DNA from: Leucobacter chironomi DSM 19883
GTDB lineage: Bacteria; Actinomycetota; Actinomycetes; Actinomycetales; Microbacteriaceae
Assembly (NCBI RefSeq): GCF_000421845.1
Contig: NZ_ATXU01000011.1
Span: forward strand, 1-64,000
Length of the DNA: 64,000 nucleotides
Reading direction: 5' to 3'
The translations under genes and the position numbers were made by a program. This document shows positions 48,744 to 58,982 of this stretch, in pieces. Within the stretch, counting starts at the first letter, position 1, and each line of letters opens with the position of its first letter. The notes under the pieces are model-generated. The model saw only the letters and a list, made by a program, of their open reading frames with translations, searched no databases and had not been told where the DNA came from.

Positions 48744-50416
48744 ATGGTGCTGACCGCGACCCGGGCCGAGCGCCGCGGGACCGGGCCCGGCGACGGAGCC
48801 GGGCCCGGCGATGACGCCCGCGGCCCGCGCCGCCGAGCACGGCGCTGGGCAGCGGTGCTGCGCACCGTGCTCGGCTGGCTCGTGGTGATCGGCGTGTGGG
48901 AGCTGCTGGGGCGCACGCTGCTCGCCGGGCGGCACCTCATCGGCACCCCGTCGGGCATCGCGGTCAAGCTGGTCGAGAACGCCGAGGTCTACGGCCGCGG
49001 GCTGCTGTTCACCTCGCGCGAGGCGCTGGCCGGCTACCTGCTCGGCAACCTCGCCGCGGTCGCGCTCGCGCTGCTGGTCGTGCTGCTGCCGGGCGTGGAG
49101 CGCCTCGTGCTGCGCTTCGCCCTCGTGGTCTACTGCCTGCCCCTCGTGGCGCTGGGCCCGCTGCTGCGGCTCGTGTACGGCTTCGGCGACGGGCCGCAGA
49201 TCACGCTCGCCGCGCTGGCGGTCTTCTACCTCACGCTCGTGCCACTGCTCGTGGGGCTGCGCGCGGTGCCCCGCTCGTGGCTCGACCTCACCGCCTCCTA
49301 CGGCCGCGGACGCTGGACCACTCTCGTCACGGTGCGGGCACGGGCGGCGCTGCCCTACCTGATGGCGGGTCTGCAGGCCTCGGTTCCCGCGGCGTTCCTC
49401 GGCGCGCTCGTCGGCGAGTTCACGGGTGCCGAGCGGGGGCTCGGCGTGCTGTCGATCCTCGCCCTGCGCAGCCTCGACACCGACGGCCTGTGGGCGCTGA
49501 TGCTGCTGAGCGCGGCCGTGTCGCTCATCGGCTACGGCGTCGTGTCGGCGGTCGCGCGTCGCGTCGCGCCCGATCGGCCGACGGTGCTGCTCGCGCCGCC
49601 CGGCTCGGCCCCGCGCCGGTCCCCGCTGGCGCGCTGGGGGCGGGCCGTCGGAGGGGTGCTCGCGACGACCGCGCTCGTGCTCGTCGTGTGGGTCGCCCTC
49701 TTCGAAGCGCTCGACCTCAACCCGTACTTCGCGAAACGGCCGTGGGATGTCTGGGACTGGCTCGTCGCCTCGGGCGACGCGGGCGAGCACCGCGCCGAAC
49801 TGCTCGCGGCCACGGGCGAGACCGTGGCCGTGGCGATCCCGGGCTACTTCGCGGGCCTCGCGACGGGGCTGCTGCTCGCGGTCGCGTTCTCGCTGTCGTC
49901 GCGGGTGCGCCGCGCACTCACCCCGGTCGCGGTCGCGCTGCGGTGCGGTGCGTGCCCATCATCGCGATCGCTCCCCTGCTGGTCGCCGCCCTCGGCCGCG
50001 GCCCCTTCGGCACCGCCGTGGTGGTCGCCATCATGACGTTCTTCCCCACCCTCGTCTCGTGCCTCTACGGTCTGCGGCAGCTCCCGGGCCAGGTCGCCGA
50101 CGTCTTCGCGAGTTATGCGGCGTCCTCGCCGCGGGTGCTGCTGCTCGGCCGGCTGCCCGCGATGGCGCCCGCGTTCTTCTCGGCCGCCCGCATCGCGGCA
50201 CCCACCGCGCTGCTCGCCGCCACGGTGGCCGAGTGGCTCGCCACCGGCACGGGGCTCGGCAACCTGATGGCGGTCGATGCGGCGACGAGCCGCTACACCT
50301 CGCTGTGGGCGACGGTGGTGGTGGTCACCCTGCTCTCCCTCGTCGCGTACGCGCTCGTCGAGTTCGTCGAGGCGCGCGTGCTGGCCCGGGTCGCGCCGGA
50401 GCAGACCCGGTGGTGA
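48744..50416 (+). pseudogene. Fused ABC transporter permease with a frameshift
   Basis: The gene encodes two permease domains in one chain, about 557 aa in all. The N-half has its coupling loop near residue 180 (Leu-Asp-Leu-Thr-Ala-Ser-Tyr-Gly) and the C-half has Ala-Ser-Tyr-Ala-Ala-Ser-Ser-Pro. The frame is lost after residue 400, where GGTGC is repeated in tandem (49942-49951). Without one copy the frame continues as Cys-Val-Pro-Ile-Ile-Ala-Ile-Ala-Pro-Leu-Leu and stays open to 50416. It is either a slipped-strand mutation, a phase-variable site or an assembly error. The gene is needed for the binding protein and ATPase upstream to work as an importer. Confidence 0.75.
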
Positions 50417-54042: not shown

Positions 54043-54084
54043 ATGCCGGGCAGGGGATCGCACATCGCGAGCGGCGATACATGA
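54043..54084 (+). CDS. 13-aa leader ORF coupled to the surface-protein gene
   Basis: ATG at 54043 follows a strong GGGGGGTG ribosome site and encodes Met-Pro-Gly-Arg-Gly-Ser-His-Ile-Ala-Ser-Gly-Asp-Thr. Its TGA overlaps the ATG of the surface-protein gene (ATGA at 54081-54084). The surface-protein start has no ribosome site of its own, so ribosomes probably arrive through this short ORF. Confidence 0.55.
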   Translation: MPGRGSHIASGDT

Positions 54085-55439
54085 AACGCGCGCTCCCCGC
54101 CCTATTCGCGGTCGTCATCGGTCTCGGTTCGGTCGTGGGGCAGCCGCCGGCTCAGGCGCTCGAGCCCGCCTTCATTCCTGCTCGAGCGACCCCCTCGGTC
54201 GAGGCGGGCCACACGAGGCTCCTCTCGGCAGAAGAGCCGCCCGCAGGTCCTTCGGAGGCACCGACCGAGGGCGGGCAGGGCGGCCCTCCGCCCGGCACGA
54301 CGACCGCTCCGAACCTGCAGGTCTCCCTCATGCTCGGCTGGTTGGGGCCGGGCAACCCCGTGCAGGTCACGGTGATCGTGCACAACGACGGGGCCGGCAC
54401 CTCGACCGGCCACACCCTCGGCTTCGCACCGCAGGAGGGCAGCGACCGGCAGGTTCTGGTCGATGCGGACTGCACCGGCTCGCCCATGAGCGGATTCCGC
54501 TGCGTCGGCGGCGCGCTGCAGCCGGGCGAGAGCCGGTCGTACGACTTCCGCTTCTCGCTGCCCGCAGCGGTCGAGGCCTGGCCCCCGTTCTGGACTGCGG
54601 CGGTGACGGGTGCCGAGCCCGATGCGGTCGAGCACGACGACCGAGCGGGGTTCGAACTGCCCGACTCCACATTCGTGCGACTCGAAGCCGACATCAAGAC
54701 GCGGGTCGACGACACCGACGGCGACGGTCGCGCGACCCCCGGCGAACCGATGGAGGTCTACGTCTACTTCGCCAACACCAGCGAGTACGAGCTCGAAGAG
54801 CCGCTCGTCGCCGTCACCGGCGCCGTCTGGGACCACCGGCGCCTGCCGCAGACGATCGCCCCAGGCGAGGAGATGACGGTGCGGTTCGATGCCACCGTGC
54901 CAGACCTCGGCGCGGACGCGTCGAGCGGTGTCGAGGCCAACGTCACCGCCCGCGCGGTCGGGGCCACCGTCAGCACGTGGAGCGGCACGCTGATGCTGAT
55001 CGGCCCCTACGCGGCGCCGAACCCGGAGGGGATCGACGGCGAGCAGAACGGGGCCGTGAAGCACGAGGTCATCGGCGCGCCGGCCGAGACCCTCGACGAG
55101 GTCGTGATCCGATCCGCGCCCCTCTCGAGTGACCTCGCGCCCGTCGAGACGCGGGAGGATCCGCCCCTCCTCGGCGTCCCTCCGACTCCGAGGGAAGCCC
55201 CGGCCGAGCTCAGCCCGATCCACACCGAGCAGTCGGCGTCGGCCACGCGAGAACGGCCCCTCGCCCCCGCACCGGCGCAGGCGCCCTCGGGCGAGCGGGG
55301 CCCCCTGAGCGTCACCGGCTCCGACCCCCTCAGAACGTCGATGCTCGGGGTGCACGTGCTCGTCGCCCTCGGGATCGTGTTCGCCCACGTCGGCCTCTCG
55401 CGGCAGACACGCAGAACGCGGGCGGGAATCGGGTCCTGA
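54081..55439 (+). CDS. Secreted surface protein with LSVTG sorting signal
   Basis: This is a 452-aa exported protein. Its signal peptide ends about Ala-Gln-Ala (24-26). A Pro/Glu-rich stretch follows, then two beta-rich domains: one (about 77-200) with Val-Thr-Val-Ile-Val-His-Asn-Asp-Gly-Ala-Gly, as in DUF11-like repeats, and a Cys pair at 131 and 141. The second (about 200-320) starts with a calcium-loop-like Asp-Asp-Thr-Asp-Gly-Asp-Gly (210-216). A disordered Pro/Ala region leads to Leu-Ser-Val-Thr-Gly (409-413), a membrane helix and Arg-Arg-Thr-Arg at the end, a class-E-like sortase signal. The stop overlaps the sigma-factor start (TGATG), so both are made together. Confidence 0.8.
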   Translation: MKRALPALFAVVIGLGSVVGQPPAQALEPAFIPARATPSVEAGHTRLLSAEEPPAGPSEAPTEGGQGGPPPGTTTAPNLQVSLMLGWLGPGNPVQVTVIVHNDGAGTSTGHTLGFAPQEGSDRQVLVDADCTGSPMSGFRCVGGALQPGESRSYDFRFSLPAAVEAWPPFWTAAVTGAEPDAVEHDDRAGFELPDSTFVRLEADIKTRVDDTDGDGRATPGEPMEVYVYFANTSEYELEEPLVAVTGAVWDHRRLPQTIAPGEEMTVRFDATVPDLGADASSGVEANVTARAVGATVSTWSGTLMLIGPYAAPNPEGIDGEQNGAVKHEVIGAPAETLDEVVIRSAPLSSDLAPVETREDPPLLGVPPTPREAPAELSPIHTEQSASATRERPLAPAPAQAPSGERGPLSVTGSDPLRTSMLGVHVLVALGIVFAHVGLSRQTRRTRAGIGS

Positions 55440-56635
55440 TGTCGGATCCCACTCCTGAGACGACGGCGCGCGGCGACGACCGCGTCCGTGACGACCGCGT
55501 CCATGACGACCGCGTCAGAGAAGCGCCCGGCCCCGGCCCCGAGCTCACCGACGAGGAGCTGTGCCGACTCGTACGCGACGGGGAGGCGTGGCCGCTCGAG
55601 ACGCTCTGGCAGCGCCACAGCGCGGTCGCGCGATTCTGGGCGGCGAAGAAGGATCCGGGGGCCGCCGAGGACATCGTCGCCGAGGCGTTCGCCTCGGTGT
55701 TCCAAGCGCTGGTCGGGGGCGGAGGCCCCTCCGCGTCGTTCCGCGGATACCTCTACAAGACGATGAACTCGCTGCTCGCCACGCACTGGAGTTCGCAGCG
55801 GCGTATACATCAGCTCGACGGCCTCGGGGGCTTGCCCGCCGATGACGTCGAGAGCTCGCCGGAAGCGCTCGGCGACGCTCAGGAGCAGCGCGCCGCCGCC
55901 GCAGCGCTGCTGGAGCTGCCCGAGCGGTGGCGCGACGTGATCGTGGCCGTCGATGTCGAGGGGCGACCGGTGCAGGACGTCGCCAGATCGCTCGGTCTCT
56001 CCCCGAACTCCACCTCCGCGCTGCTCAAGCGGGCTCGCGGCGGGCTGCGCAAGGCGTGGATCCAGCGCCTGCACCGGCCGGCCTCCGCGTTGCCCGACGA
56101 CTGCGCGAGCGCGGTCGAGCACTTCGGCATCATACGCTGGGGCAAGCCGGGCGCGCGGCGGAGAACCGCGGCCGAGCGTCACCTCGCCACCTGCGACTCG
56201 TGCCGCTCACGGTACGCGCAGTTCATCGAGCAGGCCACCACCGTCGGCCTGGGGATCGCCGGCCTGCTCGCGCTCACCCGCGAGTGGCGGCAGAAGCTCA
56301 TCCCCGCCCTGGCCACCTCCGCGACCGTGGTCGCCTCGTTCTCGATCACCGCCACGATCGACCCGGCACCCCTCGGGCCGGCGCCGGGCCCCGCGCCCGT
56401 TGAGGTCGACGAGTCGCCCGCTCGAACCGGCTCGGGGACGTCCGGCGCGGACGGCCGCACCGTGGGTTCGGAGCCGGGATCGGGCGACCGGCCTGCGGAT
56501 CCGAGCGTCGCCGCCGAGCCGGACCCCGGAGCCGACATCCCCGAGGACGAGGAAGAGGAGGAGACCACGATCCTCTACTTCGGGGACTGGACCGGCTGGA
56601 ACGAGGAGGAGCAGCGCTTCGTCATCGCACCGTGA
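55439..56635 (+). CDS. ECF-type sigma factor fused to a zinc-finger, membrane segment and outside tail
   Basis: This is a 398-aa protein. Residues of about 35-120 form sigma region 2 (Leu-Trp-Gln-Arg-His, Ala-Glu-Asp-Ile-Val-Ala-Glu-Ala-Phe, and Phe-Arg-Gly-Tyr-Leu-Tyr-Lys-Thr-Met-Asn). Residues 150-205 form region 4, with the recognition helix Gly-Leu-Ser-Pro-Asn-Ser-Thr-Ser-Ala-Leu-Leu-Lys-Arg-Ala-Arg. Then comes a zinc-binding anti-sigma-like motif (His248-x3-Cys252-x2-Cys255), a hydrophobic helix (about 287-307) and 90 acidic residues that would lie outside the cell, ending in Trp-Thr-Gly-Trp-Asn. It is normally held in the membrane and may be freed or changed by an outside signal. It is coupled to the surface-protein gene. 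Confidence 0.8.
   Translation: MSDPTPETTARGDDRVRDDRVHDDRVREAPGPGPELTDEELCRLVRDGEAWPLETLWQRHSAVARFWAAKKDPGAAEDIVAEAFASVFQALVGGGGPSASFRGYLYKTMNSLLATHWSSQRRIHQLDGLGGLPADDVESSPEALGDAQEQRAAAAALLELPERWRDVIVAVDVEGRPVQDVARSLGLSPNSTSALLKRARGGLRKAWIQRLHRPASALPDDCASAVEHFGIIRWGKPGARRRTAAERHLATCDSCRSRYAQFIEQATTVGLGIAGLLALTREWRQKLIPALATSATVVASFSITATIDPAPLGPAPGPAPVEVDESPARTGSGTSGADGRTVGSEPGSGDRPADPSVAAEPDPGADIPEDEEEEETTILYFGDWTGWNEEEQRFVIAP
55475..55519 (+). repeat. 15-bp tandem repeat at the sigma-factor N-terminus
   Basis: Three copies of a 15-bp unit beginning GACGACCGCGTC (55475, 55490, 55505) encode Asp-Asp-Arg-Val-Arg/His. The repeat keeps the frame, so the length of the N-terminal tail could vary. 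Confidence 0.85.
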
Positions 56636-57985: not shown

Positions 57986-58982
57986 ATGTACACCGTCGCC
58001 GTGCTCGCGCTTCCAGATGCCATTGCGTACGATATGGCCATCCCCGTGGAGACGTTCGGACGCGTTCGACTACCCGACGGAAGGCCGGGCTACCGGGTCA
58101 TCGTCGCAGGTCACGCGGGTGAGGTTGCTGCGGGCGCCATGACACTCCGAGTGGATCATGGACTCGACGCGCTAGATCGGGCTGATCTGATCGTCGTGCC
58201 CCGGCGCAATGATCCTGCACCACCGTCCCCACCGGAGGTGCTGGCAGCGCTTCGCCGCGCGCATGAACGCAGGACGAAGATCGCTTCGATCTGCGTCGGC
58301 GCGTTCACGCTGGCGGAGACGGGACTGCTCGACGGCTTGGAAGCAACCACGCACTGGCTCGGGGCGGATTGGTTCGCCAAACGATTCCCCGCGGTCAAGC
58401 TGCTGCCCGATCTGCTGTACGCCGACAATCACATCAGCGGGCGCATCGTCGGGCATCGACCTGTGTCTGCACATCGTGCAGCAGGACTACGGCATGGCTG
58501 TTGCGGCGGATGCCGCCCGTCTGGCAGTCGCCCCCTTGCACCGCTCCGGCGGGCAGGCGCAATACATTCTCCGCAACCGCCCCAGTTACCAGACCGCAAC
58601 CCTGGAGCCCGTGCTCGCCTGGATCGAGCATCATGCCCACGAGGATCTCACGCTCACCGATGTCGCCCGAGTCGCGGGATTGAGCACGCGCACGCTGGCG
58701 CGACATTTCACGGACGAAACCGGGCAGTCTCCCATGCAGTGGGTGACCGGGGTGCGACTGCGCCACGCGCAGGAACTTCTCGAAACCACCGATCACACCA
58801 TCGACCGCATCGCCGCCCAGTGCGGCTTCTCCTCCACGAGCAACTTCCGCGCGCAGTTCGGGCAGTCCGTGGGCGTCAGCCCGGGTGAGTACCGCAAGAC
58901 CTTCCGCCCCGCCCCGGGCTCGATCGCCGGAGCGAAGACGGGCGAGCATCCGAAGACGCACCGGGCGCACACTCCGACATGA
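57986..58982 (+). pseudogene. GlxA-type AraC regulator with a frameshift
   Basis: The N-terminal part (57986 to about 58425) encodes a DJ-1-like domain with Leu-Ala-Leu-Pro-Asp-Ala-Ile-Ala-Tyr-Asp and Ser-Ile-Cys-Val-Gly-Ala-Phe-Thr-Leu-Ala-Glu-Thr-Gly-Leu-Leu. The C-terminal part, in another frame, has Ala-Gly-Ala-Ser-Ser-Gly-Ile-Asp-Leu-Cys-Leu-His and a complete AraC helix-turn-helix ending in Pro-Gly-Glu-Tyr-Arg-Lys-Thr-Phe. The two frames meet near 58426, where one base is extra or two are missing. It is either a pseudogene or a sequencing error. Confidence 0.75.

Follow-up and report, generated by a model that had tools for sequence, protein, structure and literature searches.

The means by which a Gram-positive cell monitors its own pili and wall proteins are, to our knowledge, largely open, and one gene of Leucobacter chironomi DSM 19883 raises the question directly. 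It lies in the window analysed here, the stretch of 64,000 nucleotides at positions 1–64,000 of contig NZ_ATXU01000011.1. On the forward strand, an open reading frame (ORF) at 55439–56635 begins with ATG and encodes a protein of 398 residues, in which a sigma factor is fused to a zinc anti-sigma-like motif, a membrane helix and a tail. A gene for a putative surface protein, hereafter the partner (54081–55439, same strand), lies directly upstream. What does the tail report on, and which genes does the sigma factor serve? The reading that we prefer, with a probability of roughly 60%, is that the protein is a self-inhibited sigma factor held at the membrane, that proteolysis would free it in response to what its outside end reports of the surface partner or of a pilus, and that it would then switch on the local surface operon. 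Through such a protein, a cell might monitor its own surface structures.

Architecture of the fused sigma protein

The 398-residue protein scores 56.1 bits with the NCBIfam sigma70-ECF profile (cut-off, 42.9). Region 4 (residues ~152–205; 55892–56053) is above the cut-off of Pfam Sigma70_r4_2 with 34.4 bits and is matched by 3hug chains in Foldseek, whereas region 2 (residues ~51–122; 55589–55804) is barely below that of Sigma70_r2 (23.9 bits versus 24), with AlphaFold2 confidence in blocks mostly above 90. The two regions and the family profile assign the protein to the extracytoplasmic function (ECF; group 4) sigma factors. The top Foldseek matches of the model are mostly ECF sigma factors as well, several of them in complex with anti-sigma factors. 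C42, a cysteine of the first sigma helix, is invariant in all 13 intact close homologs.

The sigma part is followed by the motif C222-x25-H248-x3-C252-x2-C255 (56102–56212). Among 70 homologous loci picked by two sigma-domain patterns, HxxxCxxC is found after the sigma part in 69, and the lone exception is cut by a contig end. All 41 aligned rows (the window and 40 of the 70 loci) have H248, C252 and C255, and these three residues and C222 are all invariant in the same 13 close homologs. In the zinc anti-sigma (ZAS) pattern, a His or Cys is followed by HxxxCxxC in a set order and spacing. The four residues of the window protein stand in this order, and C222 is likely to be the fourth ligand.

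Averaged over 19 residues, hydropathy is highest at residues 287–305 (mean 1.62; 56297–56353). A second stretch, residues 262–280, reaches 1.38 and is separated from the first by the basic sequence REWRQK, which would keep the preceding side inside the cell; the maximum within residues 1–250 is 1.19. The 88 residues after position 310, predicted to lie outside, include 21 acidic, 4 basic and 13 Pro residues and are also rich in Gly. Most of this acidic Pro/Gly linker (56354–56575) is predicted to be disordered (pLDDT 38–48). The protein then ends in ETTILYFGDWTGWNEEEQRFVIAP, which contains the motif YFGDWTGW (residues 380–387; 56576–56599). In the AlphaFold2 model (pTM 0.45) the sigma and zinc regions are confident and the tail is disordered, while the last 20 residues are modelled as a short hairpin with low-to-moderate confidence (pLDDT 62–72).

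The architecture is an ECF sigma factor joined to a zinc anti-sigma-like motif, one weak helix and an acidic tail. The first-pass annotation had described sigma regions 2 and 4, a His-x3-Cys-x2-Cys motif, a membrane helix and about 90 outside residues in one protein, and each of these elements is recovered here. The membrane topology, the binding of zinc and the inhibition of the sigma part by the fused motif are what we infer from these sequence features.

Two forms of surface coupling

The partner comprises a signal peptide, an Ig-like core and an end made of LSVTG, a helix and basic residues. Its Pfam match to CARDB is sub-threshold, as are the matches of three orthologs to DUF11. The stop codon of the partner overlaps the ATG of the sigma gene by one base. 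The partner gene is present in 8 of 100 genomes (G000, G011, G018, G021, G022, G026, G031 and G049). A search with codons for YFGDWxxW gives one match in each of these eight, always at the sigma C-terminus, and no match elsewhere; the reversed pattern used as a control has no match in the 100 genomes. This co-occurrence gives a Fisher p of 5e-12 over the 100 genomes and of 1.6e-4 within the 15 that have an intact-length sigma gene of the window's clade, both uncorrected for kinship.

The partner adjoins the sigma gene in all eight genomes, upstream on the same strand in four and convergently in the other four; among five orthologs compared, the cores are 33–60% identical. In G026 and G031, the tail-type sigma gene is broken in its sigma part, and the partner is broken too. 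Adjacency in spite of the flipped order, together with the damage to both genes in G026 and G031, indicates that rearrangement leaves the pair united and that its two genes decay jointly. These observations support a genetic tie between the sigma gene and the surface-protein gene.

The nature of the anchor is less certain. LSVTG with the following helix and basic residues may be a non-canonical sortase signal. Some orthologs have LSITG or LSATG at this place and one has LATAG, two have no recognisable sorting signal (PLSEFQ, PLSGFQ), and the eighth partner, that of G031, is broken. Sortase anchoring of the partner is thus uncertain. The coupling to a surface protein that had been proposed from the window sequence stands, whereas the term sortase-anchored should be used with reserve. 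The pair had also been thought undescribed, and we found no description of such a sigma/surface-protein pair in the open-access literature searched.

A second form of coupling is found in eight pilin-type loci (G003, G012, G013, G020, G025, G033, G044 and L. chinensis, L057). The sigma part, the zinc motif and the helix are the same; the outside part is longer and, in all eight proteins, terminates in a sorting signal (LARTG, LAQTG, LSNTG, LVNTG or LSMTG). These loci have neither the YFGDWTGW tail nor the partner gene, which is absent from all seven pilin-type genomes searched and from the 21-kb L. chinensis stretch. Seven of them adjoin a gene for a tip-like LPxTG-type protein of ~1300 residues and, where the stretch reaches, one for a backbone pilin; in L. 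chinensis, a 514-residue LPMTG pilin-like gene adjoins the sigma gene. Sortase was confirmed by Pfam at both loci tested, namely G012 and the tail-type locus G021, which has pilins as well. At G013, the codon-position gene caller found no sortase beside the pilins.

The outside part of the pilin-type sigma factors resembles the neighbouring backbone pilin, with 49–63% identity (E 1e-21 to 2e-51) at four of seven loci; one of these matches is 58% over 142 residues (E 7e-51). At a fifth locus the match covers 25 residues only, and at two there is none, the backbone gene being cut by the end of the stretch at several of the loci compared. The Pfam SpaA domain is sub-threshold in all three proteins scanned. 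The AlphaFold2 model of the L. chromiireducens sigma factor (pTM 0.36) matches, in the PDB, the pilins FimA, SpaD and EbpB in addition to ECF sigma factors. Lys, Glu and Asn residues at three places, which we take to be the internal isopeptide bond sites of such pilin domains, are kept in six of six pilin-type sigma factors. SpaA-type pilin domains are prealbumin-like and have an E-box; sequence and model together point to a domain of this type, with a sorting signal, in the sister-type sigma factors. A pilin that carries a cytoplasmic sigma factor was not found described in the open-access literature searched.

The window protein itself has no pilin domain. A W-x2-W likeness between its tail and the pilin domain is possibly due to chance. 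We also considered whether the outside domain copies its neighbour in every such sigma factor. The resemblance is confined to the pilin type (five of seven loci), and the remaining loci that have an outside part give no match to the neighbour; in L050 the stretch read contains no motif, and an outside part is lacking in L037, L048 and L122. In the tree, the pilin type forms one clade (100/99) within a clade of 17 rows (100/100). A weakly supported part of the tree suggests that the tail type may be ancestral.

The extension beyond the zinc motif, which the first-pass annotation took as belonging to the protein, is kept in eight tail-type loci (G026 and G031 being broken) and eight pilin-type loci, against two homologs without it (the sequence beyond residue 230, in the terms of the first-pass annotation). 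One is an additional L. tardus copy (L037:7418-8143; 241 residues) that stops shortly after the zinc motif, and the full-length gene of this species is on another contig. The sole close copy in G029 is degenerate, with internal stops, ends after the zinc motif and has no partner. As for the proposal that the window protein is a complete transmembrane signalling system, its fused architecture agrees, but the protein is probably not stand-alone, because proteins with this tail are in every case accompanied by a separate partner; it is the pilin-fused relative that is self-contained.

The same fused plan is found across Actinobacteria. A scan of the genome contigs with the window protein as a single sequence gave no relative, and an alignment-based scan recovered relatives. 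Copies are often multiplied in Leucobacter and its kin, with 16 matches (E <= 1e-10) in G034, 12 in G024 and 18 in G056 (same family). A sorting-signal protein lies within 1 kb of the sigma gene, or is the sigma factor itself, at 25 of 55 Leucobacter family loci, compared with 0 of 20 control ECF loci of the same genus (Fisher 7e-5, for loci that are not independent). The coupling is uneven: 10/15 loci in the window's clade, 11/20 in G034, G024 and G003, 4/19 in a one-per-genome set and 0/1 for the paralog in the window's own genome, whose giant neighbour is cut. L164, with no match, was dropped from the count. Gene calls were made by a home-made codon-position G+C rule, so that neighbour counts are rough, and they are too low where a giant gene runs off the stretch (for example L049 and L179–L181). 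Coupling across the whole actinobacterial family did not hold up, since only 1 of 55 non-Leucobacter loci has such a neighbour within 1 kb, versus 19 of 38 Leucobacter loci.

The paralog (698 residues) is the best other family match in that genome. At L049:7185-16003 it is transcribed divergently to a giant surface ORF (at least 2172 residues) with LSTTG and DUF5979. Six fused paralogs in G034 and G024 (L126, L127, L131, L132, L136 and L137) have acidic tails with a C-terminal Trp peptide, such as PNWALVE, PNWVEIE or DGWVVIED, and the four of G034 lie within 1 kb of genes for LAxTG proteins of 1450–1800 residues. A C-terminal Trp peptide is perhaps a general docking end.

Candidate promoter and proposed mechanism

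A two-part element (dyad), CACAT-N15-CTCT, is found in 9 of 28 regions upstream of genes at the sigma loci, while no dyad exceeds four in ten shuffles. The dyad precedes the tip gene in all seven pilin-type loci, and in L034 and L036 it precedes a gene for an LVNTG surface protein of 1100 residues that is unlike the tips by BLAST. In L. chinensis, which is outside the defining set, GAACCGCGTCACAT and CTCT stand with the same spacing between the sigma and pilin genes. Altogether, the dyad stands before a pilin or surface gene in 12 of 16 loci (in L036 with one mismatch).

A scan of 60 whole genomes for GCGTCACAT-N14-16-CTCT gave 20 matches, versus eight for the reversed pattern. Twelve of the 20 are within 8 kb of a sigma gene, in 10 of 13 carrier genomes (the G029 remnant excluded): eight before a tip gene, one before a surface gene, one upstream of the broken sigma gene of G031, where no gene was called behind it, and two near the end of a pilus sortase gene, which may be due to chance. 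Three of the twelve are also in a called ORF (L188, L193 and L200), which we take as false 5' extensions or short overlaps. Since the dyad was defined on many of these loci, the scan tests its specificity and is not a discovery. The full dyad is absent from the window locus, from the whole genome to which it belongs, from G026 and from G022, where the first half stands before a small gene adjoining the partner. A promoter within the window itself was also looked for, and none was found.

These positions suggest GCGTCACAT-N14-16-CTCT as the promoter from which, in relatives, the sigma factor probably transcribes the surface or pilus operon next to it. It is possible, though on balance doubtful, that GCGTCACAT-N15-CTCT is instead the site of another regulator of pilus or surface genes. 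The common ECF promoter is GGAAC/GTC, which the dyad does not resemble; its link to the sigma factor is drawn from sequence, and two of the twelve matches at the sigma loci may be fortuitous. Against another regulator, two elements at a near-fixed spacing occur beside the sigma gene in 10 of 13 carriers, and the eight other matches in the 60 genomes are all within called ORFs.

Our preferred mechanism for the window protein is as follows. The fused zinc anti-sigma-like domain would keep the ECF sigma factor inactive at the membrane, and the single helix, with its N-terminus inside, would place the acidic linker and the YFGDWTGW hairpin outside. The most likely docking site of the hairpin is the partner encoded alongside, which would be anchored in the envelope. 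If the partner changes (by a ligand, in its assembly state or under a pull), the linker would become exposed to a site-1 protease; an M50 site-2 protease and cytosolic proteases would then release the sigma factor. In relatives, the released factor would probably turn on the neighbouring surface or pilus operon through the dyad. The roles of hairpin and partner would fall, in the sister type, to a pilin domain that belongs to the same polypeptide and has a sortase signal. An M50 protease and two sortases are found in the window's own genome.

This mechanism competes with two other accounts. In the first, the partner is merely a target or operon neighbour, switched on by a sigma factor whose tail senses another signal. 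Weak dyads before the partner gene in L034 and L036 suggest that the partner may belong to the regulon, and the frequency of sorting-signal genes near family members given above would fit a set of mere targets. We consider this account rather unlikely, since the partner is confined to genomes with the YFGDWTGW tail and is missing from all seven pilin-type genomes searched, a pattern more in keeping with a physical partner than with a target alone. In the second, a conformational change without proteolysis would let the sigma factor act from the membrane. No sequence feature demands cleavage, and a site-1 protease was not searched for; still, this account is the less likely of the two, given that proteolysis figures in the proposals for ECF48, ECF52 and ECF53 and in the tested case of IutY (PMC8999054, in the parts accessible).

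Several observations weigh against the proposed self-inhibited, surface-sensing sigma factor. The Pfam zf-HC2 score of the window protein is below the cut-off (16.4 versus 22.2), while those of the own-genome paralog (31.6) and L121 (37.3) are above it. The hydropathy of helix 287–305 is borderline, and the overall pTM of both models, of the window and L. chromiireducens proteins, is low. The tail-type loci are related, so the co-occurrence in eight genomes amounts to fewer than eight independent events, and the sorting signal of the partner is not conserved. The ten shuffles are simple and ignore kinship. The window and G026 loci lack the dyad, and the sole half-site in the window's own genome is inside an ORF. 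The M50 protease lends weak support, because it is present in all 14 control genomes.

A bolder version would make the Leucobacter sigma factor part of the very surface structure that it controls. The sister type would itself be a pilin, linked covalently by sortase to the wall or the pilus base, so that pilus assembly or a pull on the pilus directly frees the sigma factor; the window type would hold its hairpin on an anchored partner, and the genus would have many such sigma/surface pairs. We offer this version tentatively and would place it short of an even chance. Whether the outside end is a pilin or docks on an anchored partner, the route from surface structure to gene expression would be short and testable, with a candidate promoter, and the natural swap between tail plus partner and pilin domain would tell which part is the sensor.

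Two other features of the window may be mentioned. A DJ-1/PfpI-like and AraC-type regulator gene at 57986–58982 is apparently split over two reading frames. A double ABC-type permease gene at 48744–50416 is apparently split over two frames near 49.9 kb, by a sequencing slip or by decay.

Comparison with known systems

That fused sigma/anti-sigma proteins are known in some ECF groups had been stated in the first-pass annotation, and the accessible parts of two reports bear this out for ECF48, ECF52 and ECF53 (PMC8999054, PMC5826349). Proteolytic release has been proposed for these three groups (PMC8999054, accessible part). The fused plan is known in this sense, and neither the YFGDWTGW tail, nor the coupling to sortase-type surface proteins, nor a pilin-fused sigma factor was found in the open-access literature searched.

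ECF52 is among the described groups closest in plan. As far as PMC5826349 was accessible, this actinobacterial group (SCO4117 of Streptomyces coelicolor) shares with the window protein the sigma regions, a zinc finger, a transmembrane helix and a proline-containing outside extension; in the window protein the helix is weak and the proline content moderate (13/88). Over its sigma and zinc region, the window protein shares 36% identity with an ECF52-type protein from Yinghuangia. Unlike ECF52, its tail ends in YFGDWTGW and is tied to a surface partner or, in relatives, gives way to a pilin domain that has a sortase signal. That it is an ordinary ECF52 protein with a carbohydrate-binding tail is very improbable in spite of this identity, since Pfam finds no NPCBM or other carbohydrate-binding domain, the C-terminal trait of ECF52, in the window protein, a result on which a carbohydrate sensor of this kind was rejected, and since the short tail has its own motif and the proteins form a separate clade (100/100).

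ECF48 and ECF53, compared by their descriptions, resemble the window protein in a C-terminal zinc motif and one or two membrane helices (PMC8999054, accessible part). IutY (ECF243) of Pseudomonas putida is likewise a sigma factor and membrane anti-sigma factor in one protein, which is released by Prc and RseP; unlike for the Leucobacter sigma factors, the accessible part of the same report mentions no sortase or pilin partner for it. On the surface side, the nearest known counterparts are the SpaA-type sortase pilins FimA, SpaD and the basal pilin EbpB, which the outside domain of the sister-type sigma factors resembles in predicted fold, and the domain further shares with pilins the sequence match to the backbone pilin and the sorting signal.
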